Source: Bradyrhizobium sp. ORS 285
Lineage (GTDB): Bacteria; Pseudomonadota; Alphaproteobacteria; Rhizobiales; Xanthobacteraceae
NCBI RefSeq assembly: GCF_900176205.1
Contig: NZ_LT859959.1
Location: 4,299,001 to 4,363,000, forward strand
Direction: 5' to 3'
DNA length: 64,000 nt
Below the pieces are notes generated by a model. That model saw only the letters and a program-made list of their open reading frames with translations. It made no database searches and was not told the origin of the DNA. The position numbers and the translations under genes are program-made. Below are positions 24,845-58,864 of the stretch, piece by piece. Position 1 is the first letter of the stretch, and the number at the start of each line of letters is the position of its first letter.

Positions 24845-25241
24845 CAAGAAGCTCTGCACTCCAGTGCCGGGTCAGGATGGCCTGCCGGCGGTGATCAATC
24901 GAGGACGATCTTACCTGAGACCGCCTCAAATTCCCATCATCGTACACAAGCATGGTGCTTACGCACCATCAGACCCATCTTGGTATATTCTCCAACAGCG
25001 TACTCAGCGCCTCAGCGCGCGACAGCTACACGCCAAATTAGTCAGTCGTTTCAATCGAACTACGACGACTTGGAGTGGAGCGAAGTCTTGTAGTTGTCGG
25101 GGCTGTGCACAACGCCGCCGCGTCCTTGTTCGCCTTTGCACCAAATTATATGGTACGACTTATGCGATAGTTCACAGGGACACAGCTTCTAATCGGATAG
25201 TCTGTTGTCATGATTCGGTGTGCGGCAACTCCGTCGGACCA
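24845..25241. promoter_or_regulatory. Divergent promoter region of the NRPS/PKS locus, with palindrome
   Basis: This stretch of about 400 bases without a gene separates the transferase gene (minus) from the exporter-led biosynthetic operon (plus). It is visibly less GC-rich than its flanks. It contains a perfect 7+4+7 palindrome, ATGGTGC-ttac-GCACCAT, at 24952-24969, a size fitting a LuxR-, TetR- or MarR-type site. A possible promoter for the operon is TTGCAC-N18-TTATGC near 25135-25165. The open reading through this region is not family-like and is not annotated. No regulator gene is adjacent. Confidence 0.5.
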
Positions 25242-26459
25242 ATGAGCGAAGCTTTCAAGCTCGATACACGCTTCATTCCGACGCTGGCAGGTGCAGCCAT
25301 CGTCATGTCGCAGCTATCAAATTTCGTTTTTGCTCCGGCCCTGCCGGAGATCGGTCGATACTTTGAGATTTCCGCTGGCCGTTCGCAGATGCTGATGAGC
25401 GTTTTCCTTTCGGGCTATGCCTCGGTCCAGATCGTGGTGGGTCCCCTCGCCGACCGTTTCGGCCGTCGCCCCGTGCTGATCGGGGGCATCGCGCTGCTCG
25501 CGGTCGGCGCCGTGACAGCAGCGGTGGCGCAGATCGTGGCCGGCGTGTTCGTCGGCATCTTCATTCTATCGGTCGGCGCCGGCGTCCTGCCGACGGTCGG
25601 TCAGGCGATGATCCGCGACAGCCGGGATGCCCAGGCGACGTTGATGATCCTCGCGCGGCTCGGCACGGCGCTGGCGCTCGCCTCCGCCCTCACTCCCATC
25701 ATCGGCACCTCGCTGGTTGGCACGCTCGGCTGGCGCGGGCTGTTCGCGGTGCTGGCTGCCGTCGTCCTCGCGCTGGGGCCGTTCGCCTTCGTCAGCCCGG
25801 AAACCCTGACGCCGCCGGTCGAACAGGACAAGACACGCCCGCATTTGGCCGTCACGCTGGAGAGCTATCGCATCGCGCTCAGCCAGCGGCGGCTGGTGCT
25901 GTACGCCACCATGATCGGCTGCCTGACCGGTGCACTGACCATCTTCTTCATCGGCGCACCGTTCCTGTTCATGCACAAGCTGAAGGTGTCGGTGCACACC
26001 TATGGCATTCTGGCTTTCATAGCCTTTCTCCCGTTCATCATCGGATCGATCGCGGTGCGGGTATCGTTGCGGCGGCAATGGCTGTCGCTTCACGCCAACA
26101 TCCTCGTCGGCTGCGGCCTCGCGGTGATCGGTGCGGCAACCGGTTGGCTCACCAGCGTGCTCGAGCCCTCGGTGACGCTGATCCTGCTCGCAGCCGGCAC
26201 CTTCACCTTCGGTCTCGGAATGGCGGTGGTGGTCGGCCGGTCGGCGGCGCTGAGCGAGGCAACGCGCGACATTGCGACGTCATCGGCGCTCGTCACGTTC
26301 CTGATGACGGTGCTGGCGGCTGCGATCTCAGCCACGGCCGGAGTTATCGAGACCATCGAGCATGCGCCGATCTTCAGCCTGATGCTCGTGAGCGCGCTGA
26401 TCGGATTCGCCGCCGCCTTTGCCGGCAACTCCATCGCGCGCGCGGCTGCCGCCACATGA
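25242..26459 (+). CDS. MFS exporter of the Bcr/CflA drug-resistance type
   Basis: A 405-residue membrane protein with about 12 helices. FVFAPALPEIGRYFEIS and VVGPLADRFGRRPVLIGG (the A motif between helices 2 and 3) are typical of Bcr/CflA proteins. The ATG at 25242 (MSEAFKLDT) is chosen because a longer frame upstream crosses the regulatory region. It is the first gene of the biosynthetic operon and its stop overlaps the first PKS start by 4 bases. Export of the finished product, with self-protection, is the obvious role. No strong ribosome-binding site precedes the start. Confidence 0.87.
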   Translation: MSEAFKLDTRFIPTLAGAAIVMSQLSNFVFAPALPEIGRYFEISAGRSQMLMSVFLSGYASVQIVVGPLADRFGRRPVLIGGIALLAVGAVTAAVAQIVAGVFVGIFILSVGAGVLPTVGQAMIRDSRDAQATLMILARLGTALALASALTPIIGTSLVGTLGWRGLFAVLAAVVLALGPFAFVSPETLTPPVEQDKTRPHLAVTLESYRIALSQRRLVLYATMIGCLTGALTIFFIGAPFLFMHKLKVSVHTYGILAFIAFLPFIIGSIAVRVSLRRQWLSLHANILVGCGLAVIGAATGWLTSVLEPSVTLILLAAGTFTFGLGMAVVVGRSAALSEATRDIATSSALVTFLMTVLAAAISATAGVIETIEHAPIFSLMLVSALIGFAAAFAGNSIARAAAAT

Positions 26460-29400
26460 CGTCGGCATCCGTGCCCCCCGGCAGCACCGCGATCGTCGGC
26501 ATGGCCGGGCGCTTCCCGGGCGCCGCCGACATTGCGGCGTTCTGGTCGCTGCTGCGCGAGGGGCGCGATGGCGTGCGCCGCCTCTCCCGCGACGAACTGA
26601 TCGCGGCCGGACTTCCCGCATCGCTGGTCGACCATCCCGACTATGTCCCAGCCAAGGGACTGATCGAGGAAGGCGACTGCTTCGATGCGGAGTTCTTCGG
26701 CATTGCGCCGCGCGAGGCCGCTTATCTCGATCCGCAGCACCGCTGGTTTCTGCAGAGCTGCTGGCACGCGCTCGAGGATGCCGGCTGCGATCCCGCGACG
26801 TTCAAAGGCTGGATCGGCGTCTTCGCCGGCGAGGCCGAGCAGAGCCACCAGGCAGCCCTGCTCGCGCGCACGCGTGATGTTGTGGAAGCCGCGCAGTCGA
26901 CTCCGATCTTCTTCGGCAACAGCCCCGATTTTCTCGCCACCCGCGTCTCTTACAAGCTCGATCTGCGCGGGCCGAGCCTGACCGTGCAGACGGCCTGCTC
27001 GACCTCGCTTGTCGCGGTTCACCTGGCCTGCCAGTCGCTGCTGACGTTTGAATCCGATCTCGCGCTGGCCGGCGGCGTATCGATCAGCACGCCGAATGCC
27101 GAAGGCTACAGATTCGCCCACGGCTCGGTGGAGTCACCCGACGGCTGCTGCCGGCCGTTCGATGCCGACGCAGCGGGCACCCTGCCCTCGAACGGTGTCG
27201 GCGTCGTCGCGCTCAAGCGGGTCGAGGATGCGCTCGAAGCCGGCGATCGCATCTACGCGCTGATCCGCGGCACCGCGATCAACAATGATGGCGGCCGCAA
27301 GGTCGGCTTCACGGCACCGAGCATCCAGGGTCAGGCCGATGTCCTGACGCTGGCGCGCAAGGTGGCCGGAATCGACTCCGCAGAGATCGGATTCATCGAG
27401 GCGCATGGCACCGGCACCGTGATGGGCGATCCGATCGAGATCGCCGCGCTGGCTGAGGCGTTCGGACCGGCCGAGCCGGGAGCGCCGCGCTGCTGGATCG
27501 GCTCGCTGAAGAGCAATGTCGGACATCTCAAGGCTGCGGCAGGCGTCGCCGGGCTGATCAAGGCGGCGCTCGCGCTCCATCACCGGGAGATTCCGCCGAC
27601 CCTGCACTATCGTAGCGCCAATCCCAAGCTCGAGCTGGGGCGCACGCGGTTTGCCATCAACGACCGTCTAGAGCCATGGACGTCGGATCGCGCGCGGCTC
27701 GCCGCCGTCAGCTCGTTCGGCATCGGCGGCACCAATGCCCATGCCGTGCTGCAGGAAGCGCCTGCGCCGGTCGTTCGCGCGGCGACGAACGAACAGCCAT
27801 TGATCCTGCCGCTCTCCGCACCGGACGATGACGTCGCCGATGCGATGGTCCGCCGGCTCAGTGCCGCGCTGTCGGCATCGCAGCCGCCGGACATCACCGA
27901 TGTCGCCTTCACGCTGCAGACGCGGCGGCGCCATTTCCCCCGGCGGCGCGCCATCGTGGCGGCAACGACCAGCGAAGCGCGCGACATCTGCAACGGCAAT
28001 GGAGCGGTGATCACGAGCCGCGTCGGCGCCACAAAGCGCCCGCTATGCTTCATGTTTCCCGGCCAGGGCGCGGAATTCATCGGCATGGGCAGGGGCCTGC
28101 TCCGCACCGAGCCGCTGTTCAAGGAGGTCGTCGATCGTTGCGCCGCAACCGTCCAGCGGCTGACCGGGACCGAGATCCGGCAAGTGATCGAAAATGGTCG
28201 CGTGGACACGGCCGCCCTCGGCGACACCCGCTGGACCCAGCCGGCGCTGTTCGTGATCGAATATGCGCTCAGCCGACTCCTGATGCATTGGGGGCTCGTC
28301 CCGGCCTGCCTGATCGGTCACAGCATTGGCGAGCTCACCGCGGCCTGCCTTGCCGGGGTCATGTCGGAAGACGCTGCCCTGGCGCTGGTGGTCGCGCGCG
28401 GCGAAGCCATGCAAGCGAGCCCTGACGGCGCGATGCTCGCGGTCGCCTTGAGCGAGGCCGGGATCGGCGAACTAGGCCCAGACCTGCGGCTCGCTGCCGT
28501 CAATGCAGCCACGCAATGCGTGATCTCCGGCACGCCGGAAGCGATTGAACAGCAGGACGCCCGCTGGAGAGCGATGGGCGTGCAGACGCGGAAACTGCCG
28601 GCCGGCCGCGCCTTCCATTCGCACCTGCTGGAGCCCGCACTCGACACATTCAGGTCGACGCTCTCGCAGACGCCATTGGCTGCACCGCGCATCCCCATCG
28701 CCTCGAACGTCCATGGTGGCTGGCTCAGCAACGGAGAAGCTTGCGATCCCGCCTACTGGATCCGCCAGGCGCTCTCGCCGGTGCGCTTCCTGGACGGGTT
28801 GGCCTCCGTGCTGGCGCAGCAACCTCATATCCTGATCGAGGTGGGGCCAGGCAGAACACTGGGCGGCTTTGCGCGTCGGCATGCTGCGCGCACGCCCGAC
28901 ACCGAGATCGTCGCCGTGCTGCCGCAGCCGTCGTCCGCCGACATCGACGAGACACGCGCCACTTACACGGCGCTTGCCGAACTGTACGCGCAGGGCTGCG
29001 AGCTGGATTGGCAGGCCTTCAACGAGGGCCGACAGCGACAGCCGGTGTCACTGCCGCCCTATCCTTTCCGGGCCACCCGCTACGCCGTGGACATGATCGC
29101 CGATCTCGCGCGATCGACGCCGCCGCCTCCTGCCGGCCGACCGTCTGCATCAGGCGAGATCCTGTTTGTGCCGGCCTGGGAGCGCAGGCCGCGGCGTGTT
29201 CCGGATGCGCTGGACGGGACGACCTGGATCGTTGGTGACCCCGAGGGTGACCTCACCCGGACCATCGCCGCCGCCGTCGGCCGTGCCGGAGGACGGCTGA
29301 TGCAGGTGTCGGCGGCTGCCGACCGCGACGAGTTGACCGCGCACCTGCGTGCCGGCGTTCCCGACCGTATCGTGCACCTCGCGCTGCGGCAAGAAGTGAG

Positions 29401-30850
29401 CGGCGATGCACGCGAACGCGGCTATCAGTCACTGCTCCGGATCGGAGCTGCACTGGGAGCCGCCAACGTCGCGGCACTGATCGACCTGATCGTTCTCGCA
29501 CGCGATGTGTTCGCGGTGGACAACGCGGATCGCCCCGATCCCGAGGTCGCCCTGATGCTCGGGCCGGCCATCGTATTGGGTCAGGAACAGCCGAACGTCA
29601 CCGTGCGCATCATCGATGTCGGCCGTGACGTGCGAGACACTGCTGTGGTCACCGCCTGCGCCGCGTCGGGCGCTTCCGTCTCTGCCTTGCGGGGCGACCG
29701 CGTATTGGAACGCAGCTTCCGTCCGGTCGGCAGCATCGATCACACCGCCAAGCTCGACGGCCACTATCTCATCACCGGCGGTCTCGGCCGGCTCGGCCTG
29801 ACCGTGGCGCGCGAGCTCGCCAGCCGGCATGGCGCCCGCCTGTCGCTGCTCGGCCGCTCGGTGCCCAATGACATTGCCAGCCGGCTTGACGGCATTACGA
29901 CCCACGGCGGATCTGCCCAGACGTTCTCGTGCGACGTCACAGACATCGACGCGCTTGCCAAGACGGTTTCCGTCGCCGAAGCGACGTTTGGGCCGCTCGA
30001 CGGCGTCATCCACATGGCCGCCGAGACCCGCGCCTTCGCATCCATTCCCGACACTGACGGCGCCAGGTCGAAGCGTATGCTCGCGGCAAAAGTCGCAGGC
30101 GTGCAGGCGCTCGACAACGTGCTCGGCCGGCGAGAGCTGAGCGTGCGCATCCTGATGTCATCGCTCGCCTCGCTGCTCGGCGGGCTCGGCTTCTCATCCT
30201 ACGCGGCCGCGAATGCCTGGCTCGATGCCTATGCAGAGCGTGATGGCCGCTGGGCTTCGCTGTGCTGGGACGCGTGGTCGGAAGGATTGAAGGCTGACGA
30301 CGTTGCGTCGGCGGGCTACGCGCTCACGACGTCGCAGGCGATCGACGCCATCGAGCGTGTCGTGGCCGGAGGATTGACTGGCCAGCTCGTCGTCTGCGGC
30401 GGTGATCTCGACGAACGCCTTGCGCGCTGGACTGCATTGGCCCGACAGGCCACCACCGCGAACGATGCTATCTTCGACGATGCGACGGATCGCGCGCACG
30501 GCATTCGCGACATCTTCGCCGAGGTGCTCGGGCGCTCCGATCTGCCTCACGACGGTGATTTCTTCGATCTCGGCGGCGACTCGCTTCAGGCCATCCAGGT
30601 CGTCTCGCGCCTGCGGCTGCGCTTCGCATTGCCGGTCACACCCGATCTGTTGTTCGCGCACACCACTCCGGTTCAGCTCGCGGCCGCGCTCGATCATCTC
30701 GCGGCTGCGCAGCCGCCGGGTGCGGCCACCCCTGCTGTCGATCTGGTCCGCCCGGTGAGCGAGGAGGCCCGCCGCATGGTCGAAGTGATGTCGGGCGATG
30801 AAGTCAACCGGATGCTGGAGCGGCTACTGGCGGAGGGGCAACCCACATGA
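26456..30850 (+). CDS. Type I polyketide synthase module, KS-AT-KR-ACP (first)
   Basis: A 1464-residue single extension module. The KS (about 10-430) has Cys181 in QTACSTSL, His317 in EAHGTGT and His357 in NVGHL. The AT (about 530-835) has Ser623 in GHSIGE and His721 in GRAFHSH; both motifs favour malonyl-CoA over methylmalonyl-CoA. The KR (about 950-1345) has the NADPH loop ITGGLGRLG from residue 1103 and Tyr1249 in SSYAAAN. The ACP (about 1345-1415) carries Ser1376 in DLGGDSL. DH and ER are absent, so the added C2 unit is left as a beta-hydroxyl. The C-terminal helix (MLERLLAEG) probably docks to the next NRPS. Overlaps of 4 bases at both ends couple it to its neighbours. Confidence 0.93.
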   Translation: MTSASVPPGSTAIVGMAGRFPGAADIAAFWSLLREGRDGVRRLSRDELIAAGLPASLVDHPDYVPAKGLIEEGDCFDAEFFGIAPREAAYLDPQHRWFLQSCWHALEDAGCDPATFKGWIGVFAGEAEQSHQAALLARTRDVVEAAQSTPIFFGNSPDFLATRVSYKLDLRGPSLTVQTACSTSLVAVHLACQSLLTFESDLALAGGVSISTPNAEGYRFAHGSVESPDGCCRPFDADAAGTLPSNGVGVVALKRVEDALEAGDRIYALIRGTAINNDGGRKVGFTAPSIQGQADVLTLARKVAGIDSAEIGFIEAHGTGTVMGDPIEIAALAEAFGPAEPGAPRCWIGSLKSNVGHLKAAAGVAGLIKAALALHHREIPPTLHYRSANPKLELGRTRFAINDRLEPWTSDRARLAAVSSFGIGGTNAHAVLQEAPAPVVRAATNEQPLILPLSAPDDDVADAMVRRLSAALSASQPPDITDVAFTLQTRRRHFPRRRAIVAATTSEARDICNGNGAVITSRVGATKRPLCFMFPGQGAEFIGMGRGLLRTEPLFKEVVDRCAATVQRLTGTEIRQVIENGRVDTAALGDTRWTQPALFVIEYALSRLLMHWGLVPACLIGHSIGELTAACLAGVMSEDAALALVVARGEAMQASPDGAMLAVALSEAGIGELGPDLRLAAVNAATQCVISGTPEAIEQQDARWRAMGVQTRKLPAGRAFHSHLLEPALDTFRSTLSQTPLAAPRIPIASNVHGGWLSNGEACDPAYWIRQALSPVRFLDGLASVLAQQPHILIEVGPGRTLGGFARRHAARTPDTEIVAVLPQPSSADIDETRATYTALAELYAQGCELDWQAFNEGRQRQPVSLPPYPFRATRYAVDMIADLARSTPPPPAGRPSASGEILFVPAWERRPRRVPDALDGTTWIVGDPEGDLTRTIAAAVGRAGGRLMQVSAAADRDELTAHLRAGVPDRIVHLALRQEVSGDARERGYQSLLRIGAALGAANVAALIDLIVLARDVFAVDNADRPDPEVALMLGPAIVLGQEQPNVTVRIIDVGRDVRDTAVVTACAASGASVSALRGDRVLERSFRPVGSIDHTAKLDGHYLITGGLGRLGLTVARELASRHGARLSLLGRSVPNDIASRLDGITTHGGSAQTFSCDVTDIDALAKTVSVAEATFGPLDGVIHMAAETRAFASIPDTDGARSKRMLAAKVAGVQALDNVLGRRELSVRILMSSLASLLGGLGFSSYAAANAWLDAYAERDGRWASLCWDAWSEGLKADDVASAGYALTTSQAIDAIERVVAGGLTGQLVVCGGDLDERLARWTALARQATTANDAIFDDATDRAHGIRDIFAEVLGRSDLPHDGDFFDLGGDSLQAIQVVSRLRLRFALPVTPDLLFAHTTPVQLAAALDHLAAAQPPGAATPAVDLVRPVSEEARRMVEVMSGDEVNRMLERLLAEGQPT

Positions 30851-33800
30851 CCGCCGCGCGGCTCACGCCAGACATGGCCAAGATGTCCGCGGCAGAGCAG
30901 CGCGCCCTGCTGACGCAACTGCTGAGCCGCCGCACCGATCAGCCGCACAGCTACCCGCTCTCATTTGCGCAGCAGCGGCTGTGGTTTCTCGACCGGCTCA
31001 ATGCCGGCAGCCCGGCTTACAACATCCCGGGCGCCTTTGACCTGTCAGGGCCGCTCGACGTCGCCGCCCTGACGGAGGCGCTGAATGACCTGGTCGCGCG
31101 GCACGCGCCGCTACGCACCGTCTTTGCCGAGATCGACGGCAAGCCCGTGCAGACTGTGCTGCCCACGCTTCACGTCGCGCTGCCGCTCGTCGATGCGGTC
31201 GATGAGGATGCCGCCCGGAGCCTGGTCGACGCTGAAGTGGCCAAGCCGTTCGATCTACGCGAGACAGTGTTCAGAGCCAGGCTGATCCGCCTGACCCCAT
31301 ATCGTCACGTCCTCATCGTCGTGCTCCATCACATCTGCGCCGATGGCTGGTCGCTCGCGGTTTTCAATCGCGATCTCGCTGCCGCCTATGCGGCGCGCCG
31401 GGATGGCCAGGATCCGAACCTTGCCCCCCTCGGGACAGACTATGCGAGCTTCAGCGTGGCGCAGCGAACCGCGCTCAGCGGCACGCGGCTGCACCATCTG
31501 CTCGATTTCTGGAAGGCCAAGCTTGCCGGTCTGCCTGTGATCGACCTGCCGCTCGACCGGCCGCGGCCCGCGCTCGCAAAGCTGCGTGGCGACTCGATCG
31601 ATGTCAGCCTCGAACCGGATCTGATCGCCGCGGCGAGCGAGTTGGCGCGGCAGCAGTCGACGACGCTCTATTGCGTGCTGCTCGCCGCATTCCGCGCCGT
31701 GCTCGGCCGGATCGCGGGCCAGACCGATTTCGCGATTGGAGCGCCCGTGGCTGGACGAACCGATCCTGCGCTGGAGAATCTGATCGGCTTCTTCGTCAAT
31801 ACGCTGGCGATCCGGGTCGATCTCGCGCAGGCGAAGGATTTCAGCCATCTCGTCCGCCTCACCAGGGAGACGATGATCCAGGCCCAGGCGCGTCAGGACC
31901 TGCCATTTGAGAAGCTGGTCGATGACCTGAACCTGCCGCGGGACACCAGCCGCAATCCGCTGGTGCAGGTGCTGTTCGCGCTGCAGAATGCGCCGATGCT
32001 GCCGCTGCAGCTCGAAGGCCTGTCGACAGCCGCGTTTCCGTATCGACTGCCCGCGGCGCGCTTCGATCTCGAGCTGCATCTGTGGGACGGCCGGCAGAGC
32101 TGGACCGGCGCGCGCGATGTGGACGCCGGGCTGACTGGCACCTTGTTCTACAACAGCGATCTGTTCGATCGCGCGACGATGACGGACCTGCTCAGGATGC
32201 TGAAGGTCTGGCTCGCGGCCGCGCTTGCGACGCCAGACCGTCCGCTCGCCAGCTATCCGCTGCTTGATGCGGCCGCACAGGCCGGCATCATCGCGACCGG
32301 CGATGGCGGTCCGGCGCCGGATGTTGACCTGCCCGCGCTGCTGGAAAAAGCGCGCGTGCGTTTTGGCGAACGCTGCGCGTTACACGACGGGTGCGGCCAA
32401 GATCTCACCTATGATCAGCTCTACGATCGTGCCGACCGGATCGGATCGGCGCTCTGCGCACGGGGCCTCACCGCCGGAGACGTCGTCGCGCTGGTGCTCC
32501 CCCGTGGCCGCGATCTTGTCGCCGCCATGCTGGCTTGCGCCCGCTTCGGCTTCCCGTTTGCGCCTGTCGATCCTGAGCTGCCGCCGCTCCGCCTCACGCA
32601 GCAGATCGCGCTCGCCGGTGCCGCGCTAGTGCTCTGCGCAGACGAACATGGGGCCGACGCGGCGATCAGTGCGTCGTGCACGACGATCGGCACCTTGATC
32701 GGCAACATCGGCCGCGACGTCATTGCCCGACCCAACGCGCGCAATCACGCCCCGCTCTACATCGTGTTCACCTCGGGTTCGACCGGCACGCCGAAGGGCG
32801 TCCGTATGCCGATGCGCGCCTTTGCCAACTTGATGGCCTCTCAGCTCGCCATCCGCCCGCAGCCGATGCGGACGCTGCTGGCCTCTGCGGTCGGCTTCGA
32901 CGTTGCTATCCAGGAGGTACTGTTCACGCTGTCGACGGGCGGTGTGCTGATCCCGGCAACGGAGGCGCAACGGCGCGATCCGCAGCAACTCGCTGCGCTG
33001 ATCGCACGAGAGCAGATCGAGCGCGTCTTTCTCCCTTTCCCGCTCATTGCGCTGCTGGCGCGCGGCGTCGTCACTTCCGGGCAACGCCTTGTATCGCTGC
33101 GCGAGATCATCACGGCGGGTGAGCAGCCCCACCTCACCGACGAGGTCCGGCGTCTTTTCACAGGGCATCCGGGCCTGCGGCTGATCAATCAGTACGGTCC
33201 CGCCGAGACCCATGTGGTGAGCGAGGAAGTGCTCGACGGCGATGCCTCGCACTGGCCCATGCTGCCGTCGGCAGGGCGCGCGCTCCCGGGCAATCGCCTG
33301 TATGTCCTCGATGCAGAAGCCCGGCTACAGCCCTACGGCCTTGCCGGCGAACTCTGCATTGCCGGCGTTCAGGTTGCCGATGGCTATCTCGGCGGCGGCG
33401 CCTTGGCGGATCGCTTCGTCGCTGATCCGTTCGCCGCCGACGCCCGCATGTATCGCACCGGCGATCTCGTCAAGCTGAACCGCGATGGGCGTCTCGCATT
33501 CCTGGGCCGGCGCGACAACCAGATCAAGATCCGGGGCTACCGCGTCGAACCGGGCGAGATCGAGGTGGTGCTCGCCGCTCATCCCGGCGTTACCGATTGC
33601 GCTGTCGTCGCCGAGCGCGATGGGGGCGGCCACCGCCACCTCGTCGCCTGCGTCGTTCCCGGCTCACCGGCTTTTGTGCCGCATGCCCTGCGTGACTGGC
33701 TGCGGCCCCGCCTGCCCGACTACATGATGCCGGCGCGCTTCCTGCAACTCGATGCGCTCCCCTTGTCTGCCAACGGCAAGGTCGACCGCGCCGCGCTGAC

Positions 33801-34146
33801 TGCTGCCGGCCGACCATTCGCCTCGTCGTCGCTGGACCAACCCGCGCCGCGCAGCGCGACCGAACAAGCGATCGCTGCGATCTGGAGCGCTGTGCTCCGC
33901 CGCGACGACGTCGACGTCGACAGCACCTTCTTCGAGCTCGGCGGCAATTCGCTGCTGCTGGTGGAGGCCTACGACAAACTGGTGAGCAGCTTTGCCGTGC
34001 CGCTCGCCATCGCCGACCTGTTCCAGTTTCCGACGGTGGCGGCGCTGGCGCGTCACATCGATGCGGCCGCGCAGCCGGCCGCCGTCAGCACCGCGACCGG
34101 AATCCGCGGGCGTGCGCTGCGCATGCGCGGAGAGGGCTTGCGATGA
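30847..34146 (+). CDS. NRPS module C-A-T, predicted proline-activating
   Basis: A 1099-residue single module. The C domain (about 35-460) has the catalytic HHICADG (His161-Gly167). The A domain (about 480-975) has A3 FTSGSTGTPKG and A10 ANGKVDRAAL. The T domain carries Ser1035 in ELGGNSL. Reading the specificity positions by eye against GrsA (FDVAIQE, FLPF, IITAGE, NQYGPAETHVV) gives roughly D-V-Q-F-I-A-Q-V-V. This resembles proline codes (DVQ-I-AHV), with Gln where His is usual. The N-terminal AEQRALLTQLLSRR helix looks like a docking partner for the PKS tail. The Arg-rich C-terminus RGRALRMRGEGLR resembles that of the other NRPS that appears to precede a PKS. Confidence 0.9.
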   Translation: MTAARLTPDMAKMSAAEQRALLTQLLSRRTDQPHSYPLSFAQQRLWFLDRLNAGSPAYNIPGAFDLSGPLDVAALTEALNDLVARHAPLRTVFAEIDGKPVQTVLPTLHVALPLVDAVDEDAARSLVDAEVAKPFDLRETVFRARLIRLTPYRHVLIVVLHHICADGWSLAVFNRDLAAAYAARRDGQDPNLAPLGTDYASFSVAQRTALSGTRLHHLLDFWKAKLAGLPVIDLPLDRPRPALAKLRGDSIDVSLEPDLIAAASELARQQSTTLYCVLLAAFRAVLGRIAGQTDFAIGAPVAGRTDPALENLIGFFVNTLAIRVDLAQAKDFSHLVRLTRETMIQAQARQDLPFEKLVDDLNLPRDTSRNPLVQVLFALQNAPMLPLQLEGLSTAAFPYRLPAARFDLELHLWDGRQSWTGARDVDAGLTGTLFYNSDLFDRATMTDLLRMLKVWLAAALATPDRPLASYPLLDAAAQAGIIATGDGGPAPDVDLPALLEKARVRFGERCALHDGCGQDLTYDQLYDRADRIGSALCARGLTAGDVVALVLPRGRDLVAAMLACARFGFPFAPVDPELPPLRLTQQIALAGAALVLCADEHGADAAISASCTTIGTLIGNIGRDVIARPNARNHAPLYIVFTSGSTGTPKGVRMPMRAFANLMASQLAIRPQPMRTLLASAVGFDVAIQEVLFTLSTGGVLIPATEAQRRDPQQLAALIAREQIERVFLPFPLIALLARGVVTSGQRLVSLREIITAGEQPHLTDEVRRLFTGHPGLRLINQYGPAETHVVSEEVLDGDASHWPMLPSAGRALPGNRLYVLDAEARLQPYGLAGELCIAGVQVADGYLGGGALADRFVADPFAADARMYRTGDLVKLNRDGRLAFLGRRDNQIKIRGYRVEPGEIEVVLAAHPGVTDCAVVAERDGGGHRHLVACVVPGSPAFVPHALRDWLRPRLPDYMMPARFLQLDALPLSANGKVDRAALTAAGRPFASSSLDQPAPRSATEQAIAAIWSAVLRRDDVDVDSTFFELGGNSLLLVEAYDKLVSSFAVPLAIADLFQFPTVAALARHIDAAAQPAAVSTATGIRGRALRMRGEGLR

Positions 34147-37100
34147 CCGGGAGCTCCTTGAGCGCGCGTGAGGCCATCGCCGTGATCGGCATGGCCGGTC
34201 GTTTCCCCGGCGCTGACGATGTCGAGACATTCTGGCGCAATCTGCAAGCCGGCGTCGAATCCGTGCGCCCCTTGAGTGACGACGACCTCGTCAAGGCCGG
34301 CGTTCCCGCCTCACTGTCCACCCGACCGGACTATGTGCGCGCCAAGGCCGTGCTCGACGACGCCGACTGTTTCGATCATGAGTTCTTCGGCTATTCGCCG
34401 CGCGAAGCCATGCTGATGGATCCGCAGCATCGGCTGCTGCTCCAGGTCGGCCATGCCGCGCTCGAAAGCGCTGGCTATCGCAAGGGCGGCATCGCCGGCT
34501 GGACCGGGGTGTTCGCCGGCGCCGCCCGTGCGGGCTATTGGCTGTCAAACCTCACCGACAATCCGCGCGCGGCCGAAGGCGACGACCAGATCTTCATCGG
34601 CAACGAGAAGGACTTTCTCGCCACCCGGCTTGCCTTCAAGCTCGACCTGCACGGACCGGCCGTCGACGTCCAGACGGGGTGCTCGACGTCACTGGTCGCT
34701 GTCCACATGGCATGCCGCGCTCTGCTGGCCTTCGAATGCGACGTCGCGCTGGCCGGCGGCGTCACCGTCAGCCTGCCGCTCACGGGCGGCTACCTGCATC
34801 AGGAAGGATCTGTGCTGGCCCGCGACGGCCATTGCCGGCCGTTCGATGCGGCGGGCGACGGCATCGTTCCCGGCAACGCCGCCGCGATGGTCCTTTTGAA
34901 GCGCCTGTCGGAAGCGGTCGCCGATGGCGACATGATCCATGCCGTGATCCGCGGCAGCGCCATCAACAATGATGGCGGACGCAAGATGAGCTTCACCGCG
35001 CCGAGCGTCGAAGGACAGGCCGAGGCTGTGCTGCTGGCGCAGCAGCTTGCCGGCATCACGGCCGACGAGATCGGACTGATCGAGGCCCATGGAACGGGAA
35101 CGCGGCTCGGCGACCCCATCGAGGTCAGCGCGCTCACGCAGGCGTTTCGCGAGACGACGCAGCGGAACGGCTTCTGCGCGCTGGGCAGCCTGAAGGGCAA
35201 TGTCGGTCATCTCGATGCCGCCGCCGGCGCCGCCGGGCTGATCAAGGCGGTGTGCGCCGTGCGCGACGGCATCATTCCGCCGACCATCAACGTCAACACG
35301 CCCAACCCTGCGATCAACTTCGCCGGCAGTCCGTTCTATCTGGCCACTGAAGCCAAGACATGGCCGGAGGCGGTGCGCCGCGCCGGCGTCAGCGCCTTCG
35401 GCATCGGCGGCACCAACGCGCATGTCATCGTCGAGAGCTTTACGCCGACGCGCGCGACAGGACGAGATGGCAGCTGGCGCGTGCTGCCCTTCTCGGCACG
35501 CGACGAGGATGGCTTCACTCGGCTGAGCACGGCGCTCGCTGACCGTCTTGCCGACGGACAGATCACGCTCGCCGACGCTGCCTACACGCAGCAAGCCGGA
35601 CGCACGGCTCACGACCAGCGCGGCGCGATCATCGCACGCGATGCGGCCGAGGCGGCAGCGGCGTTGCGAGGCGACAGTGGCAGTCGCCGCGTATCGGCCC
35701 GGGCGTTGATGCGGCCCAAATGCGCTTTCCTGTTTCCGGGCGGCGGTGTCGCCTATCCCGGCATGGCGCGCGGACTGCTCGCGCAGGAGCCAGCATTCCG
35801 AGAGGCATTGCTGGAGGTCGCGGCGCATCTCAGCACGGCGGGGGCCGATGTGCTGCCGCTGATCCGCGATGCGTCCGACACGCCTGCCGATCGCAGCGCT
35901 CGGATCACCCTGCCCGCCACTTTCGCTGTCTCCTACGCGCTGGGCCGGCTGTGGCAGGCGCGCGGCGTCAAAGCCGACATCATGCTCGGCCACAGCCTCG
36001 GCGAATATGCTGCCGCAACGCTCGCTGGCGTGTTCACGCTGGCAGAAGCCGCACGGATCGTGGCGTTACGCTCGGCGCTGCAGGATGCGAATGCCGGCGG
36101 CGCCATGCTGGCCATCATGGGGTCGAGCGAAGCCGCAATGGCACTGGCAGGCCCGGAGGTCGATCTCGCCGCCATCAATGGCCCCGATCTGTGCACCGTC
36201 TCAGGACCACACGCCGCCATCGATCAGCTCGAACGCAAGCTCGACGCGTACGGCCTGCGCAGCCAGCGCCTCGTTCTCAACGTCGGCGGCCACTCCCGTG
36301 CGATCGACGCTGTCATGCCGGAGTTCAGGACTGTGTTTGCGGGCGTGCCGCAGCGTGCGCCATCATGCCCTATCATCTCCAGCCTGACCGGCGACTGGCT
36401 TCGCGCCGGCGAGCTGACGCCCGACTACTGGGTCACGCATCTGCGCCACACCGTCCGCTTCGACCGCGCGCTCGCCACGCTGTTGCGCGAGCCCGACCTG
36501 GTGCTGATCGAGTGCGGTCCGGGCGAGGCTTGCACGATGCTGGCCGCACAGCATCCAGCCTCCAGCACGAGCCATCATCGCGTGATCTCGGTGCGAAAGG
36601 CCGGAGCCGCCGATGATGATAAGGCCGTGCTGCTGACCGCGGCCGCGCAGCTTTGGTGCTCCGGCGTCGAAGTCGATCTCTCCGCGACAGCCGGCGTCGC
36701 CGACGGTGTTCGCGTGCCACTGCCGACCTATCCGTTTCAGCGCAACCGACTCTGGATCGACGCCCCGGCACCCGGCCAGCGCAGCAGCGCCGCAACTGAC
36801 AAGCCGATTGACGATTGGTTCTATCTGCCTGCCTGGCGCAGGGCGCTGCCGCCTGTGGCGCGAACCGACGCTGCTTCCGGCGCTGCGCTGGTGTTCGACG
36901 ACGGCAGCGCCATTGCTGCCGGCGTTATCGACGGACTGCGCATGGCCGGGCATGATCCCGTGCTGCGCGTGCGCCCCGGTGACGGTTTCACCATCGACGA
37001 GCAGGATGTCTTCCAGGTTCGCCCGGGATCAGCCGAGGATCTCGGCCTGCTGCTGATCGCGGCCGGCGCAGCGCCTGCGCTGGCGGTCCATCTCTGGAGT

Positions 37101-44570: not shown

Positions 44571-45793
44571 CCGGGACTGAACCTACGCGGACCAAGCCGC
44601 GCATCATCATGGTCTCCGGCAAGGGCGGGGTCGGCAAGACCACCGTCGCTGCCGCGACCGCGGTGGCGCTGGCCGCCCGCGGCCGCAAGACCATCGTGAT
44701 GTCGTTCGACCTGGCGCACAGCCTCGCCGACAGCTTCAACATGAGCGAGGAGCTGTTCAGCACCGCACGCGGCCAGCCGGTGAAGGTGCGCGACAATCTC
44801 GACTTCCAGGAGATCGACGTCCAGGAGGAGATGCAGCGCAACTGGGGCGACGTCTACAAATACATCGCCTATCTCCTGATGGGCGGCGGGCTCGACGGCA
44901 TCGTCGCCGAGGAGGCGGCGATCATGCCGGGCATGGAGGATATCATCGCCCTCCTCCACATCAACCAATATGCCCGCGAGGGCACCTACGACGTGATCGT
45001 GGTCGACTGTCCGCCGACCAGCGAGTCCTTGCGCTTCGTCTCGATCATCGGCTCGATCGACTGGTATGTCCGCAAGCGGCTCAAGATCGACCGCCGGGTC
45101 GCCAGCGTGCTGCGGCCGATTGCCAAGAAATTCGGCGGCGAATCCATGATGCTGCCGGAGGACGGCTATTTCGCCGCACTGCAGAGCTTGTTCGAGAAGC
45201 TCGAAGGCGTCGAGACCATGCTGCATGACCCGACGATCACCTCACTGCGGCTGGTCACGGTGCCCGATCAGATGGTCGTCCGCGAGACCCAGCGGGCCTA
45301 TATGTATTTCAACCTCTACGGGATCGCCATTGACACCGTCGTCGTGAACCGCATGCTACCCAAAGGCGACGGCTACTTCTCGCACTGGGTGGAGCGACAG
45401 ACCGCAATGATCGAGACGGTGCATAGCTACTTCGACCCGGTGCCGATCGCGATTATCCCGTTCCAGCGGAGCGAGGTCGTCGGCATCGAGCGGCTGGAGG
45501 AATTCGGCGCCCAGCTCTACGGCGAGGCCGACCCGGCCGAGGTTCGCATTTCGACGGCGCCGTTCGGCTTCGCCAAGATCTCCGACAACGAACACAGGCT
45601 CTCGGTGCAGCTCCGGTTCGCACCAAAGGACAAGGTGGAGATCTCCCGCGACAACGAGGATCTCTTCATCCGGATCGGGACGTTCAAGCGCGTCATCCTG
45701 CTACCCCGCGCCCTGGTAGCAATGCAGACGGCGGGCGCAAAGATGAACGGCGATGCACTCGAAATCACATTCAGAAAGGATGCGCATTCATGA
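44567..45793 (+). CDS. ArsA/Get3-like ATPase with C-terminal HSP20-like domain
   Basis: A 408-residue soluble ATPase of the anion-transporting/Get3 group. The deviant Walker A is SGKGGVGKTT (Lys19, Lys24). Switch I reads SFDLAHSLAD, with Leu where DPAHS is usual. The A-loop is VDCPPTSESLRF. Residues about 330-408 look like the alpha-crystallin/HSP20-type domain found at the end of many bacterial ArsA-like proteins. The single cysteine is the one in VDCPP, so there are neither metalloid-binding cysteines nor a CxxC zinc clamp; arsenite export is therefore unlikely. It lies inside the megasynthase operon and overlaps its neighbours. The client, substrate and role are unknown; targeting or chaperoning is an inference. 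Confidence 0.85.
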   Translation: MTGTEPTRTKPRIIMVSGKGGVGKTTVAAATAVALAARGRKTIVMSFDLAHSLADSFNMSEELFSTARGQPVKVRDNLDFQEIDVQEEMQRNWGDVYKYIAYLLMGGGLDGIVAEEAAIMPGMEDIIALLHINQYAREGTYDVIVVDCPPTSESLRFVSIIGSIDWYVRKRLKIDRRVASVLRPIAKKFGGESMMLPEDGYFAALQSLFEKLEGVETMLHDPTITSLRLVTVPDQMVVRETQRAYMYFNLYGIAIDTVVVNRMLPKGDGYFSHWVERQTAMIETVHSYFDPVPIAIIPFQRSEVVGIERLEEFGAQLYGEADPAEVRISTAPFGFAKISDNEHRLSVQLRFAPKDKVEISRDNEDLFIRIGTFKRVILLPRALVAMQTAGAKMNGDALEITFRKDAHS

Positions 45794-46236
45794 TCAGCCG
45801 CGGAAGCTTCCCGTTCCTGAAGCGGGCCATGGACTCATCGCAATCGCTGACCGACGATCTGCGCGAGGTCGCGGACACGCATAATTCGGCGATGAGAACG
45901 CTGCTCGAGCAGGCGCTGAAGGCGCAGGCCGAGCTCTACAAGGGTCAGCTCGCGGTGGTCGAGAACCTCATTGGCAAGCTGCACAAGCCATCATCGCCGC
46001 CGCCAGCGACCCATGCGCGCCCGGCAGCAACAGCTCCGGCCCCGGCGCCTGCCAGCACGCCGACCTCGACAGCAGCCGCCAACGTCAGCCCGGTTCACGG
46101 CAGCCGCGCCCAGGCGATCGCGACCGCTACCGCTGCGGCCACTGAATCGGCGACGCTGGCCCAGCAGATCAGACCAACCGCCGAGCTGCGCACCGCCATG
46201 CCGTCCCGCCCGACTCCCCTCCCCAAGGATTCCTGA
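45790..46236 (+). CDS. Small helical protein with Pro/Ala-rich tail, partner candidate of the ArsA-like ATPase
   Basis: A 148-residue protein that I do not recognise. Residues about 15-64 look like one or two amphipathic helices, including AELYKGQLAVVENL (47-60). Residues 65-148 are low-complexity Pro/Ala/Thr, probably disordered. It starts in a 4-base overlap with the ATPase gene. The helix shares a motif with the next small protein (AEL-x-x-G-x-LAVVE). A phasin-like or adaptor-like role is possible. There is no signal peptide or clear transmembrane helix. Confidence 0.7.
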   Translation: MISRGSFPFLKRAMDSSQSLTDDLREVADTHNSAMRTLLEQALKAQAELYKGQLAVVENLIGKLHKPSSPPPATHARPAATAPAPAPASTPTSTAAANVSPVHGSRAQAIATATAAATESATLAQQIRPTAELRTAMPSRPTPLPKDS

Positions 46237-46249
46237 AAGGACCAGACCG

Positions 46250-46534
46250 ATGACCGAGGCCCATGACAAGGACGACGCCACCGTCGACGCCGCAACGCTC
46301 GGACTGAAAGCGATCGATCTGCAGCCGCTGCTCAACTACGCGCAGGCCGCCATCAACCAGGTGCTCGGGCCGCTATTGGCCGGACGCAACGAGAGCGTCC
46401 AGATCATGCGCAAGCACATCCTGCGCAGCGAGGCCGAGCTGCTCCGCGGCCTGCTCGCGGTGGTCGAGAAGGAAGAGCAGCGCGCTGACAGCGGCCCCAA
46501 GGAGCGCCGTCCGCAACGTGTTCCGGTCGAGTAG
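46250..46534 (+). CDS. Small helical protein, second partner candidate of the ArsA-like ATPase
   Basis: A 94-residue protein of unknown family, with a good AAAGGA site before its ATG and 13 bases after the previous stop. It has an acidic N-terminus, a hydrophobic helix (LLNYAQAAINQVLGPLLAG, about 27-45), and a second helix with EAELLRGLLAVVEKE (61-75) that matches the motif in the preceding protein. The tail is charged. The paired small proteins may form a hetero-oligomer acting with the ATPase. The reading frame is well supported by operon context, but not by any named domain. Confidence 0.7.
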   Translation: MTEAHDKDDATVDAATLGLKAIDLQPLLNYAQAAINQVLGPLLAGRNESVQIMRKHILRSEAELLRGLLAVVEKEEQRADSGPKERRPQRVPVE

Positions 46535-46537
46535 GCC

Positions 46538-48375
46538 ATGGACGGGATCATCGCCGGGATCGGCCCGCGCATGATCGTCGACCCCGAGCTGTCGCTGGCC
46601 TGGCACGATCACCCTGAGCCGGAGCGCGGCAGCATTAGCGATCTGGTCCGCAGCGCGGCTGCGCGATCCCCTGACGTGCCGGCGCTGATCGGCCCCGCTG
46701 GCACGATGACCTATGGCGAATTGATTGCTCGCGCCGATCACATGCGCGCCGCCTTGATCGCCCGCGGAGCACGGCGCGGCGACCTGATCGCCGTGCTGTC
46801 AGGCCGTGACCTCGACCTGCCGGCGCTGCTGCTCGGCGTGCTCGATGCCGGCTGCGGCTATGTCCCGATCGCGCCGCATTATCCGCGCGCGTTCACGGAG
46901 AGCGTGCTTGCAGCGGCACAGCCATCCCTGATCGTCGTGGCCGCCGGCATGTCACAACAGTTTGGTCCGGAGTGGCAGAATCGCGTCATCATGACCGATG
47001 CCATCACGCGCGCAGGGACAGCACCACCGCCAGCCGCCCGCGCCTCGGACACCGCCTATGTGATCTTCACGTCGGGCTCGACCGGTCGACCCAAGGGCGT
47101 CGTCGTCCGCCATGAGAACGTCACCCGGCTGATGGTCTCGCCGAGCTACGCCACGATCGACAGCCGCAGCATCGCGCTGGCGCTGTCGCCGCCGAGCTTC
47201 GATGCCGCCGTGTTCGATCTCTGGCCGTTCCTCGCCGCGGGCGCGCGCGTGGTGCTGCATCCGGATGCGCCACCGACGCCCGACAGCATCGCCGAGCTGG
47301 TGCGCCGCCATGGAGTCACGACGGCTTTCATCACAACCGGCGTGTTCAACCGCACGGCCGAAGATCGTCCCGATGCGCTCGCCGGCGTGGAGGTCCTGAC
47401 CGGCGGCGAACGCGGCAGCGCCGAGGCCGCCCGGCGGATCCTCGATGCCCGCGCGAGCGCCGTCGTGCATTGCTACGGGCCGACGGAGACGGCCGTGTTC
47501 ACCACGACCGCAAGATTCACCCCTGCCTCGTCTCCCAGCGAGCCGTTCCCGATCGGCCGGCCTGTTGCAGGAACGGCGTGCTACGTGCTCGATCCCGACC
47601 AGCGCCCGGTCGCGTTCGGCACGGAAGGCGAACTCTGGATCGGCGGTGAAGCCGTCGCGACCGGCTATCTCGGCGATGTCCAGCTGACCCGCGAGCGGTT
47701 CCGGCCCGATCCCTTCCGCCCGGGCGCGCTGATGTATCGCAGCGGCGACGGTGTCTGCATGCAGCGCGATGGATCGCTGGTCTTCCTCGAACGTCTCGAC
47801 GAGCAGCTCAAGATCAGGGGTCATCGCGTCGAGCCCGGCGCCATCGCGCGCCACCTCGAAGCGATCGATGACGTGCGCGGTGCGATCGTGCTGGCGGCCG
47901 AGTTGTCGCCAGGCGATGTCCGGCTTCATGCGTTCGTGACCACGTCGGCAACTCACGGTCTCACCGAGGCCCAGCTCCGATCGCAGCTGCAGGCCGACCT
48001 GCCGGCCGCCATGGTGCCGTCGCGGATCGTGATCGTGCCATCGTTTCCGCTGTCGGCCAACGGCAAGATCGATCGCGAGGCGCTGCTATCGCGCCTGCGG
48101 GCGGACGCAAGCAGCGAGATAGCCTTCGATGACCCCAATGAGGCGGCGGTCGCGGCGCTGTTCACCTCGATCCTGAAGCTTGCGCCAGCCGGAGCCGCCG
48201 ACGACTTCTTCGACCTCGGCGGCGACTCCTTGTTGGCGATGCGCCTGCTCGGACAATTGCGGGCGCAGCTCGGCTGGCACGGGACGTTGCAGGACCTCTA
48301 TACCGACGCGACAGTGCGCGGCATCGCCCGACGTCTGGCTGATGCGGCGGCCATGCCGTTCGAGGCGGGCGTGTT

Positions 48376-48379
<4 letters not shown>
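46538..48379 (+). CDS. Stand-alone A-T NRPS loading protein
   Basis: A 613-residue protein with an adenylation domain (about 35-530; A3 FTSGSTGRPKG, A10 ANGKIDREALL) and one carrier domain (Ser564 in DLGGDSL), but no condensation domain. The by-eye code (FDAAVFD, TAFITTG, VLTGGE, HCYGPTETAVF) is D-A-F-F-L-G-C-V-F, close to isoleucine/valine codes. Lacking a C domain, it is the natural starter module. The next gene encodes a synthetase with a TubC-type N-terminal docking domain, which would accept the C-terminal tail of this protein. The genes overlap by 4 bases. Confidence 0.9.
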
Positions 48380-56066
<7,687 letters not shown>

Positions 56067-56070
<4 letters not shown>

Positions 56071-56942
56071 ACTCGCACGATCCCATCCCGTCTCCCGGTC
56101 TTGGCGACCGCCTCGGGGTTGCACCGGCGCAGCTCAAGTCGCGCGTCATCGATTTCTACAACGGCCTGAATACCTATCTCTCCGACAGCAGCCTCGATGG
56201 TTATGTGCAGTTCTTGAACTGGGGCTACCTGCCAGTCGAGGGCCGGCCCGACGATTGGAGCGGCAGTCTGCCAGCCGCGATGCTCGATCGCCATGCGGTG
56301 CGGCTGGTGCTGGAACTGCTCGGGCCGCTTGGCGTCCATGGTCTGGATGTGCTCGACGTCGGCTGCGGCCGCGGCGGCACGCTGGCGACGCTCGCCGCGC
56401 GCTTTTCGCCGCGCAGCCTCACGGGTGTCGATCTCAACCCGACGAGCATCGCCCATTGCCGCCACGCTCAGGCCGATCCGCGCCTGCGCTTCTTCCAGGG
56501 CGACGCCGAGGACCTCGCGTTTGGTGACGGCAGCTTCGATCTCGTCACCAACATCGAATCTTCCAACGCTTATCCGGACATCGACCGCTTCTACCGCGAG
56601 GTCAATCGCGTGCTGCGGATTGGCGGCCATTTCGCCTATACCGACCTGCTGCAGCCGGCGCAGTTCGCGCATGCGCGCGATTTCCTCACCGCCAACGGCT
56701 TCGTCATTGCAGCCGATCGCGACATCACCGCCAACGTACTGGCCGCGCGGCGCGAGGCGGCGCAGGTGCAGCTGCGGGCCTTCAATGCGGAGGAGACCGG
56801 CGCGGCCGACCCGACGCGCGCCGCCCTAATGAGCTACTTCCTCGCGCCGGAAGGCTCCGAGTTCTTTGACAGCATCGAGGATGGCCGCTTCGAATATCGC
56901 ATCCTGCGCCTGCGCAAGGTCGCCGACTGCATCGAGCTGTAG
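56067..56942 (+). CDS. SAM-dependent methyltransferase, phthiotriol O-methyltransferase-like (first)
   Basis: A 291-residue class I methyltransferase. Motif I is VLDVGCGRGGTLATL (about 95-109), with the acidic ribose contact in GVDLN and motif IV-like FDLVTNIESS. The N-terminal FYNGLNTYL and FLNWGYLP stretches match the family of mycobacterial phthiotriol/phenolphthiotriol O-methyltransferases. It overlaps the NRPS stop by 4 bases. Two ketoreductase-derived hydroxyls are expected in the product, so O-methylation of one is the best guess. N-methylation of the N-terminus is an alternative. Confidence 0.87.
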
Positions 56943-56953
56943 CGAGACCGCCC

Positions 56954-57841
56954 ATGTCCGACCACGACACTTACGACCTGCCCGACAAGGCGACTGCGCC
57001 CGAGGCCTTCAAGTCGCGCATCCAGCGCTTCTACGGCTATTGGAACCGGCGCGTCGACGGGCTGCCGTTCGGCGAGGTCAGCCTGTTCATGAACTGGGGC
57101 TATCTGCCGTCGGGCCAGGACGAGGCGCGCCTGCTGCCCACGCCCAATGCCGTCAACGCCAGCTCGGTGCGGCTGATCCTCGAACTGGTCGGCGACACCG
57201 ATCTCGCCGGCCGCGACGTGCTCGATATCGGCTGCGGCCGCGGCGGCACCGTACACACGCTGCTGAACTACTTCCAGCCGCGCGGGGTCACCGGCATCGA
57301 CCTCACGCCGGAGAACATCGCTTTCTGCCGCCGCGCGGTCGATGCCCCGCGCAGCCGCTTCCTGGAGGGCGACGCCGAGCAGCTGCCGTTCGCCGACCAG
57401 AGTTTCGATGTCGTGACCAATGTCGAGAGCTCTCACTGCTATCCGCATATCGCGCGGTTCTATGCCGAGGTGGCGCGGGTGCTGCGGCCGGGCGGCACGT
57501 TCCTCTACACCGACGTGTTCGACCGCGACGACGTGATGGCGCGGCGTGCCGAGATGGGGGCCTGCGGGCTCGACGTGCTCGGCGACCGCGACATCACGCC
57601 GAACGTGATGCTGGCGCGCGCCGCGGAAGGCGACGCGCAGCTCGCAGGCTTCGGCGCCGGAGCGCCCGCAGAAGAAGACGTCACCGCGCAATCCGATGCC
57701 CGCGTCCTCGACCTCATCATGGCCCGCCCCGGCTCGGAGATGCAGGTTGCGATGACCGAAGGCCGCCTCTCCTACCGCATCCTGCGCGCACGCAAGCGCG
57801 AGAGGCTGTCGAGCCGACTGCGCGGCCCTCATCGCGGCTGA
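56954..57841 (+). CDS. SAM-dependent methyltransferase, phthiotriol O-methyltransferase-like (second)
   Basis: A 295-residue paralogue of the preceding methyltransferase. Motif I is VLDIGCGRGGTVHTL (about 89-103), preceded by FYGYWNRRVDG and LFMNWGYLP. FDVVTNVESSHCYPH is the motif IV region. It starts 11 bases after the first copy and is the last gene of the operon. Its final 13 bases overlap the end of the convergent formyltransferase-like gene. One methyltransferase per hydroxylated ketide unit is the simplest assignment. Confidence 0.87.
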   Translation: MSDHDTYDLPDKATAPEAFKSRIQRFYGYWNRRVDGLPFGEVSLFMNWGYLPSGQDEARLLPTPNAVNASSVRLILELVGDTDLAGRDVLDIGCGRGGTVHTLLNYFQPRGVTGIDLTPENIAFCRRAVDAPRSRFLEGDAEQLPFADQSFDVVTNVESSHCYPHIARFYAEVARVLRPGGTFLYTDVFDRDDVMARRAEMGACGLDVLGDRDITPNVMLARAAEGDAQLAGFGAGAPAEEDVTAQSDARVLDLIMARPGSEMQVAMTEGRLSYRILRARKRERLSSRLRGPHRG

Positions 57842-58737: not shown

Positions 58738-58864
58738 TGCGTCACTGCCCCCAAATGCCGACCATTCCAACTCCTCAGTCCTGTCTTCCCTGCTCTCCTT
58801 CCCTGAGGATATCACGAGCCGAGACGAGCAAGAACCGGCGTCCCGGCATCGTGCGGACCAGGCC

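Follow-up and report, generated by a model that had tools for sequence, protein, structure and literature searches.

A conserved orphan NRPS/PKS assembly line with auristatin-like module order in Bradyrhizobium sp. ORS 285

What does the hybrid nonribosomal peptide synthetase/polyketide synthase (NRPS/PKS) operon of Bradyrhizobium sp. ORS 285 make, and how far does its likeness to dolastatin 10, an anticancer peptide of marine origin, and to the auristatins go? The operon occupies positions 25242-57841, plus strand, of a 64,000-nucleotide stretch (the window) of a genome that consists of a single contig of 7,797,098 bases and carries reaction-centre genes. We conclude that the locus encodes a real, conserved orphan assembly line that is auristatin-like in order and has no known product. 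On balance we favour, by a little more than even chances, a colinear line giving an auristatin-like formylated peptide with two C2 units, a reading in which domains, motifs and conservation are observed and substrates, formylation, O-methylation and linear release are predicted.

An operon in five clusters

The genes at 25242-57841 form one tightly packed hybrid operon, with the 4-base overlaps between most adjacent plus-strand genes that are expected of a single operon. In DNA order they encode a major facilitator superfamily (MFS) exporter, PKS1, an NRPS with condensation (C), adenylation (A) and thiolation (T) domains, PKS2, a C-A-T protein ending in a thioesterase (TE), a patatin, a type II thioesterase, an ATPase, small proteins 1 and 2, an A-T loader, a TubC_N-C-A-T-C-A-MT-T protein with a methyltransferase (MT) segment, and the separate methyltransferases MT1 and MT2. 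Chance or misread domains are ruled out by the motifs, the conservation and the Pfam E-values, which for the ketoacyl-synthase N-terminal, AMP-binding and condensation domains lie between 3e-60 and 4e-158, much too low for chance matches. Both PKS proteins carry ketosynthase (KS), acyltransferase (AT), ketoreductase (KR) and acyl carrier protein (ACP) domains. The synthetase genes, with domains from Pfam, are:

26456-30850, plus strand: PKS1, KS-AT-KR-ACP; AT with Q, TQPALF and AFHS, KR with K, S and Y
30847-34146, plus strand: NRPS C-A-T with Pro-like code DVQ-F-IAQVV; PDB match TycB
34143-38657, plus strand: PKS2, KS-AT-KR-ACP with an atypical AT motif; KR with K, S and Y
38654-42652, plus strand: NRPS C-A-T-TE with Phe-like code DAF-T-VAAVW; TE with GWSLG; PDB matches GrsA/TycA
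46538-48379, plus strand: loader A-T with Ile/Val-like code DAF-F-LGCVF and C-terminal tail FEAGVL
48376-56070, plus strand: NRPS TubC_N-C-A-T-C-A-(N-MT)-T, both codes DAFFLGVTF; PDB match 5wmm

The conserved unit comprises 15 genes and continues beyond 57841 to 58815, taking in a minus-strand formyltransferase gene. A search of genome contigs returned 37 loci, three of them orthologous (90, 79 and 77%) and all in Bradyrhizobium (SRS-191, SSBR45G and B. aeschynomenes 83002); the next best reached 41%. The fifth cluster, in Phreatobacter aquaticus, has the 15 genes in identical order. Its genome is assigned to that species by the exact identity of a named protein, P0243; a second protein, P0128, did not read identically, perhaps because of its start codon. 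In the 60 kb surrounding it the formyltransferase was the only one of the tested window flank proteins that was found, and the borders of the unit are therefore placed at 25242 and 58815.

A preliminary description of this DNA had proposed one operon at 25242-57841 with the NRPS/PKS domains named above, two ketide positions and a terminal TE. Pfam and the gene overlaps confirm the operon, and the two KS-AT-KR-ACP proteins and the C-A-T-TE protein bear out the rest. Its start coincides with that of the MFS exporter gene, and the conserved unit runs on past its end to take in the formyltransferase. Its inventory was right for the NRPS, PKS and methyltransferase genes, including two related O-methyltransferase-like enzymes (MT1 and MT2, present with scores below NCBIfam cut-offs), and left unnamed the formyltransferase, patatin, type II thioesterase, ATPase and both small proteins. 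The A-domain classes that it had assigned (Ile/Val three times, then Pro-like and Phe-like) and the N-methylation that it had placed in the third module also agree with the codes and PDB matches given below.

Order of assembly and predicted substrates

The order of the genes in the DNA differs from the proposed order of assembly, the loader and the TubC_N protein being encoded downstream. From the gene layout and docking regions we infer the order loader, C-A-T-C-A-MT-T, PKS1, C-A-T, PKS2, C-A-T-TE. The loader has A and T domains only in the Pfam scan, with no C domain, and its C-terminal tail FEAG(V/T)L is present in all five clusters. Its proposed successor is the only protein on which Pfam finds a TubC_N docking domain. 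Arg-rich tails occur on the C-A-T-C-A-MT-T protein and on the Pro-like C-A-T protein, both of which are proposed to precede a PKS. Since PKS1, C-A-T, PKS2 and C-A-T-TE are contiguous, the proposed order uses each module once, and layout and docking regions together would place one reducing PKS module behind residue three and the other behind residue four.

Specificity codes were read by motif anchors, not by antiSMASH, and leave out the tenth position. They were compared among the five clusters (four from photosynthetic Bradyrhizobium and that of Phreatobacter aquaticus) and are near-invariant down to about 57% protein identity. The code DAFFLGVTF occurs in all ten A domains of the C-A-T-C-A-MT-T proteins; an excerpt of PMC2533009 prints DAFFLGVTFK for Ile with minor Val, and an excerpt of PMC13122637 prints it for Ile. 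The loader code DAF-F-LGCVF is shared by three clusters and ends in Y in 83002; in SSBR45G the script read all but two positions. In the PDB the loader is matched best, over a single stretch, by surfactin synthetase 3 at 262 bits and 5wmm at 261.

The first module of TycB takes Pro, and GrsA and TycA take Phe. TycB is the best single-stretch PDB match of the Pro-like A domain (272 bits, with TycA at 212); fuscachelin H follows closely at 269 bits, so that the TycB match is support for Pro and not proof of it. Eight positions of the Pro-like code, DVQ-IAQVV, are identical in nine of ten distinct proteins (window, SRS-191, SSBR45G, 83002, Phreatobacter, P0122, P0125, P0126 and P0127), P0124 having V for I; at the ninth position the window has F and P0125 has Y. 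The Phe-like code DAF-VAAVW is kept in all five clusters, and that A domain matches GrsA (263 bits) and TycA (257 bits) best in a single stretch, with TycB at 206. Chains with two matched A domains, namely LgrA (204-226 bits for single domains) and 8xjz, sum higher. A literature search did not find the Pro-like, Phe-like or loader code strings in print; two canonical codes, that for Pro among them, were not found either, so that this absence says little.

The MT segment of the third module has its best PDB match in the NRPS chain 5wmm (2.7e-47, residues 7-390), in which an N-methyltransferase is inserted into the A domain; the likeness is to this segment, and 5wmm presumably comes from a different cluster with a different substrate. 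In PKS1 the AT residues Q, TQPALF and AFHS are, we assume, the malonyl pattern. AT2 has G for Q and the motif PGGG ... VGGHS, with IGAHA in Phreatobacter, and is atypical in all five clusters; given this conserved atypical motif, the extender of PKS2 cannot be called. Among solved AT structures 5yda, listed in the PDB as 'PKS', comes closest to both. None of the ten KR sequences of the five clusters has lost K, S or Y, and Pfam scans detected no C-methyltransferase domain in either PKS protein.

On these assignments, the loader would activate Ile or Val, whose amine may then be formylated by the discrete formyltransferase. The TubC_N protein would then add Ile followed by N-methyl-Ile, and PKS1 would extend the chain by two carbons from malonyl-CoA, with the ketone reduced to the beta-hydroxyl level. 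Pro or something close to it would come next, from the C-A-T module, and after it a second reduced C2 unit from PKS2, with its substitution written as R'. The last module would contribute Phe or a similar residue before the TE releases the chain, probably in linear form. MT1 and MT2 may O-methylate the two hydroxyls, and the MFS protein may export the product. The predicted linear product is (formyl-)Ile/Val-Ile-[N-Me-Ile-CH(OR)CH2CO]-[Pro-CH(OR)CH(R')CO]-Phe-OH. For the Ile form with R' = H, the calculated [M+H]+ values are 704.459 for the bare chain, 732.454 for the formylated one, 732.491 if it is O-methylated twice and 760.486 if it carries all three groups.

Tailoring, release and the likeness to dolastatin 10

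The candidate tailoring genes lie at the downstream end of the unit:

56067-56942, plus strand: MT1, O-methyltransferase-like; NCBIfam phthiotriol MT 139 bits, Mtf2 139 bits
56954-57841, plus strand: MT2, O-methyltransferase-like; NCBIfam phthiotriol MT 160 bits, Mtf2 157 bits
57829-58815, minus strand: discrete formyltransferase of ArnA/Fmt type (Pfam; PDB ArnA 5.5e-19), with N-L-H and DDGPI

The phthiotriol O-methyltransferase and Mtf2 families are the top-scoring NCBIfam models for both methyltransferases. The formyltransferase gene converges on MT2, their ends overlapping; it is open in all five clusters and keeps N-L-H and DDGPI in each, which include the N-x-H and D residues that are presumably catalytic. 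Linear gramicidin synthetase LgrA begins with a formylated Val and has its formylation (F) domain fused to A-T. The Bradyrhizobium cluster likewise has an A-T starter for an aliphatic residue and an enzyme of formyltransferase type, the latter encoded by a separate minus-strand gene and not as a fused domain.

Several observations weigh against the pathway as drawn. Apart from the lack of a known product, they concern the individual assignments. Compared with the canonical Pro code, the Pro-like code carries Q in place of H; compared with the canonical Phe code, the Phe-like one has W in place of the final C. In the four Bradyrhizobium clusters the A3 core of both Ile domains misfits SGSTG..KG (PKA in the window). 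The match to the first C domain of the protein at 48376-56070 is split in two (126 and 51 bits), and that to the TE covers only profile positions 2-105 of 226. The AT2 residues fit neither the malonyl nor the methylmalonyl consensus. MT1 and MT2 score under the cut-offs of the phthiotriol MT and Mtf2 families (300 and 400), and the formyltransferase scores modestly to its families and lies on the opposite strand. The assembly-line model also leaves the roles of the patatin, ATPase and small proteins unexplained.

A somewhat unlikely alternative is that both gamma-amino-beta-hydroxy units are statine-like transition-state mimics and the product a protease inhibitor. A reduced C2 extension of an amino acid is indeed a statine-type unit, and NRPS/PKS clusters that form statine are known, with pepstatin the case in an excerpt of PMC12081711; however, the two O-methyltransferase-like genes suggest that the hydroxyls are capped, and among the families detected in the scanned cluster genes there is no protease fit to act as a spare target. 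We also think it unlikely that the TE macrocyclises the chain rather than hydrolysing it. Its position and type (C-terminal, type I, with GWSLG) fit either outcome, and the attacking group could be a hydroxyl or an unblocked N-terminal amine, but a formylated amine would block head-to-tail closure.

The last argument depends on the formyltransferase being part of the pathway. Its strand would suit a mere neighbour, as would the fact that in Bradyrhizobium the gene is followed on the same strand by a resistance-nodulation-division (RND) pump that also travels with the cluster. Yet the formyltransferase occupies the corresponding position in all three of the related Bradyrhizobium (92, 76 and 80%) and in Phreatobacter (59%), where neither the RND pump nor the other tested flank proteins were found, and it has no match at E<=1e-40 in any of 59 other relatives, which lack the cluster. 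A bystander role thus has a low probability. Because the formyltransferase is found only with the cluster, and because Pfam detects no methyltransferase domain in the loader, the chain start is more likely N-formylated than N,N-dimethylated. A dolastatin/auristatin-type N-terminus is accordingly not supported.

Excerpts of two papers give the order of dolastatin 10 as dolavaline, Val, dolaisoleuine, dolaproine and a Phe-derived end (PMC11677665), with two amino acids each extended by two carbons (PMC12415834); the paper on its cluster is Kallifidas 2024, as given in a reference entry of PMC12193938. Set beside dolastatin 10 and symplostatin 1 of the cyanobacterium Caldora penicillata by this published unit order, and not by sequence, the Bradyrhizobium line matches in ketide sites, N-methyl site and, by predicted codes, residue classes (aliphatic, aliphatic, N-methyl-aliphatic, Pro, Phe). 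To this extent the dolastatin 10/auristatin logic first proposed stands; at the N-terminus, at the Cys/thiazole end and in C-methylation of the Pro-ketide unit the likeness is not supported. Unlike the dolastatin 10 system, the Bradyrhizobium cluster has no N,N-dimethylating domain, and its last module is the C-A-T-TE with the Phe-like code, with no further module in the operon to provide a Cys/thiazole end. For a 2-methyl group on the Pro-ketide unit there is no C-methyltransferase domain in PKS2 and only the atypical AT2 motif. That the operon proteins show neither a Cys/thiazole module nor a C-methyltransferase, nor a clear methylmalonyl AT for the dolaproine-like unit, had been anticipated. 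O-methylation of both beta-hydroxyls has two candidate genes, both scoring below family cut-offs. The Bradyrhizobium cluster in turn has a formyltransferase, a patatin, an ArsA-type ATPase and small proteins that set it apart from dolastatin 10.

A true member of the dolastatin 10/auristatin family, with an N,N-dimethyl start, both ketides methoxylated, a 2-methyl Pro-ketide and tubulin as target, would fit the order of units and the two O-methyltransferase-like genes, and AT2, lacking the phenylalanine of the malonyl-type pattern, is compatible with methylmalonyl, but the start and end just described, together with the lack of any cyanobacterial name among the 120 Pro-module relatives listed of 1247 (many of them nameless), make it very improbable. 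A likeness in module order is a resemblance and does not by itself show membership.

Accessory genes, distribution and constraint

Five further genes lie between the two groups of synthetase genes, and all have counterparts in the five clusters:

42649-43746, plus strand: patatin-like serine hydrolase (Pfam Patatin 2.3e-21) with DGGISG, GTSAG and DGG
43743-44570, plus strand: type II thioesterase (Pfam 4.3e-44) with GHSMG and GNHFF in all five clusters
44567-45793, plus strand: ArsA/Get3-type ATPase (Pfam ArsA_ATPase 1.4e-84) with a C-terminal HSP20-like domain (ArsA_HSP20 6.8e-16)
45790-46236, plus strand: small protein 1, its tail rich in Pro and Ala; without a Pfam family at E<=1
46250-46534, plus strand: small protein 2, predicted as a single long helix; without a Pfam family that passes its cut-off

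The patatin keeps its three motifs in all five clusters. It has no match at E<=1e-20, and the ATPase none at E<=1e-40, in any of the 59 other relatives, and both lie inside the operon in every cluster, so that we reject the reading of them as unrelated residents. The patatin resembles the phospholipase effectors of CBASS (PADLOC; NCBIfam under cut-off). A role as such an effector was rejected, as the neighbouring cluster genes scanned contain no cyclase family and the gene is packed inside a biosynthetic operon. The ATPase was found in none of 384 other genomes of the class (1e-50) and none of 298 others of the phylum (1e-90), samples that may overlap and in which only a few first-look candidates were scored per genome; a protein search gave relatives at about 50-60% in other phyla, those named being Myxococcaceae, Corallococcus, Acidobacteriota and Entotheonella. 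Small protein 1 is 54% identical over 59 residues to its Phreatobacter counterpart and shares a 27-residue match with small protein 2. The model of small protein 2 (pLDDT 80.7) has its helix at 25-80; it had no match at E<=10 in a PDB fold search and none at 1e-5 in 336 other genomes of the class. The samples for the ATPase, patatin and small protein 2 overlap in part.

The ratio of nonsynonymous to synonymous substitution rates (dN/dS), calculated against the three Bradyrhizobium relatives for 14 genes with the formyltransferase left out, is 0.02-0.24. It is lowest for the ATPase (0.036-0.043) and small protein 2 (0.035-0.067), followed by the patatin (0.020-0.107) and MFS exporter (0.073-0.096), and is 0.14-0.24 for the NRPS/PKS genes. 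Among Bradyrhizobium, then, the ATPase and small protein 2 are more constrained than the synthetases. Towards Phreatobacter the ATPase, at 81%, and the patatin, at 76%, are closer than the NRPS proteins, at 57-59%, and small protein 2 is unremarkable (64%, dN/dS 0.36). We take the patatin, ATPase and small proteins to be part of the system; our guess is that they handle or sequester a hydrophobic peptide. A literature search found no paper that joins patatin and ArsA in a nonribosomal peptide gene cluster, and of two papers listed for tubulysin with patatin the one examined was not relevant.

Six of 265 genomes of the genus passed 1e-195 (its own, the three orthologous carriers and two at 40-41%), and two of 397 of the order passed 1e-215 (its own and Phreatobacter aquaticus). 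The protein search, in which the closest named matches are from Bradyrhizobium, adds among the 120 relatives listed of 1247 ORS 375, USDA 4353 and metagenome proteins at about 70%, with Phreatobacter aquaticus at 57%. Reaction-centre genes are present in all four Bradyrhizobium carriers and two non-carriers, and absent in Phreatobacter and one non-carrier; as carriers and non-carriers are mixed among the six of eight genomes that have them, the link to photosynthesis is not strict. Among the Bradyrhizobium NRPS papers listed in a literature search no title or abstract start names this cluster, and a search for auristatin with Bradyrhizobium found nothing.

The remaining genes stand at or beside the borders:

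24191-24859, minus strand: 4'-phosphopantetheinyl transferase of Sfp/PptT type, a cluster neighbour (Pfam 4PPT_N 1.2e-27)
25242-26459, plus strand: MFS exporter, Bcr/CflA-like (Pfam MFS_1 2e-34), kept in all five clusters

The phosphopantetheinyl transferase adjoins the cluster in the three Bradyrhizobium relatives too (87, 71 and 75%) and has no match at E<=1e-5 within 60 kb around the Phreatobacter cluster. A longer MFS reading frame, 24744-26459, scores 155 bits to NCBIfam TIGR00710, under the cut-off of 200.9, and a promoter scan of 24800-26500 found none (0.3 expected). The RND pump and a membrane-fusion protein adjoin the cluster at 58865-63325 on the minus strand; they are also next to the unit in all three Bradyrhizobium relatives and were not found in the Phreatobacter flank. 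Upstream ABC transporter genes adjoin the unit in SRS-191 and SSBR45G and were not seen in the 12 kb read from 83002. The genome has 37 condensation-domain matches, five of them in the window, and further NRPS regions at about 853-891, 2916-2945 and 5013-5042 kb.

A bolder proposal, which we rate as quite improbable, is that the product of Phreatobacter and the photosynthetic Bradyrhizobium is an antimitotic peptide, N-formylated and auristatin-like, which arose independently of its marine cyanobacterial counterpart or by distant transfer from it, and that a dedicated patatin, the ATPase and the two small helical proteins handle or retain this hydrophobic peptide within the producing cell. If the order of assembly proposed here is right, the logic behind the backbone of a major drug lead would occur outside cyanobacteria, in alphaproteobacteria, with a different start and end, and auristatin-like chemistry would be open to study in another host. 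The conserved set of patatin, ATPase and small proteins raises the question of what roles helper genes may have in peptide pathways.

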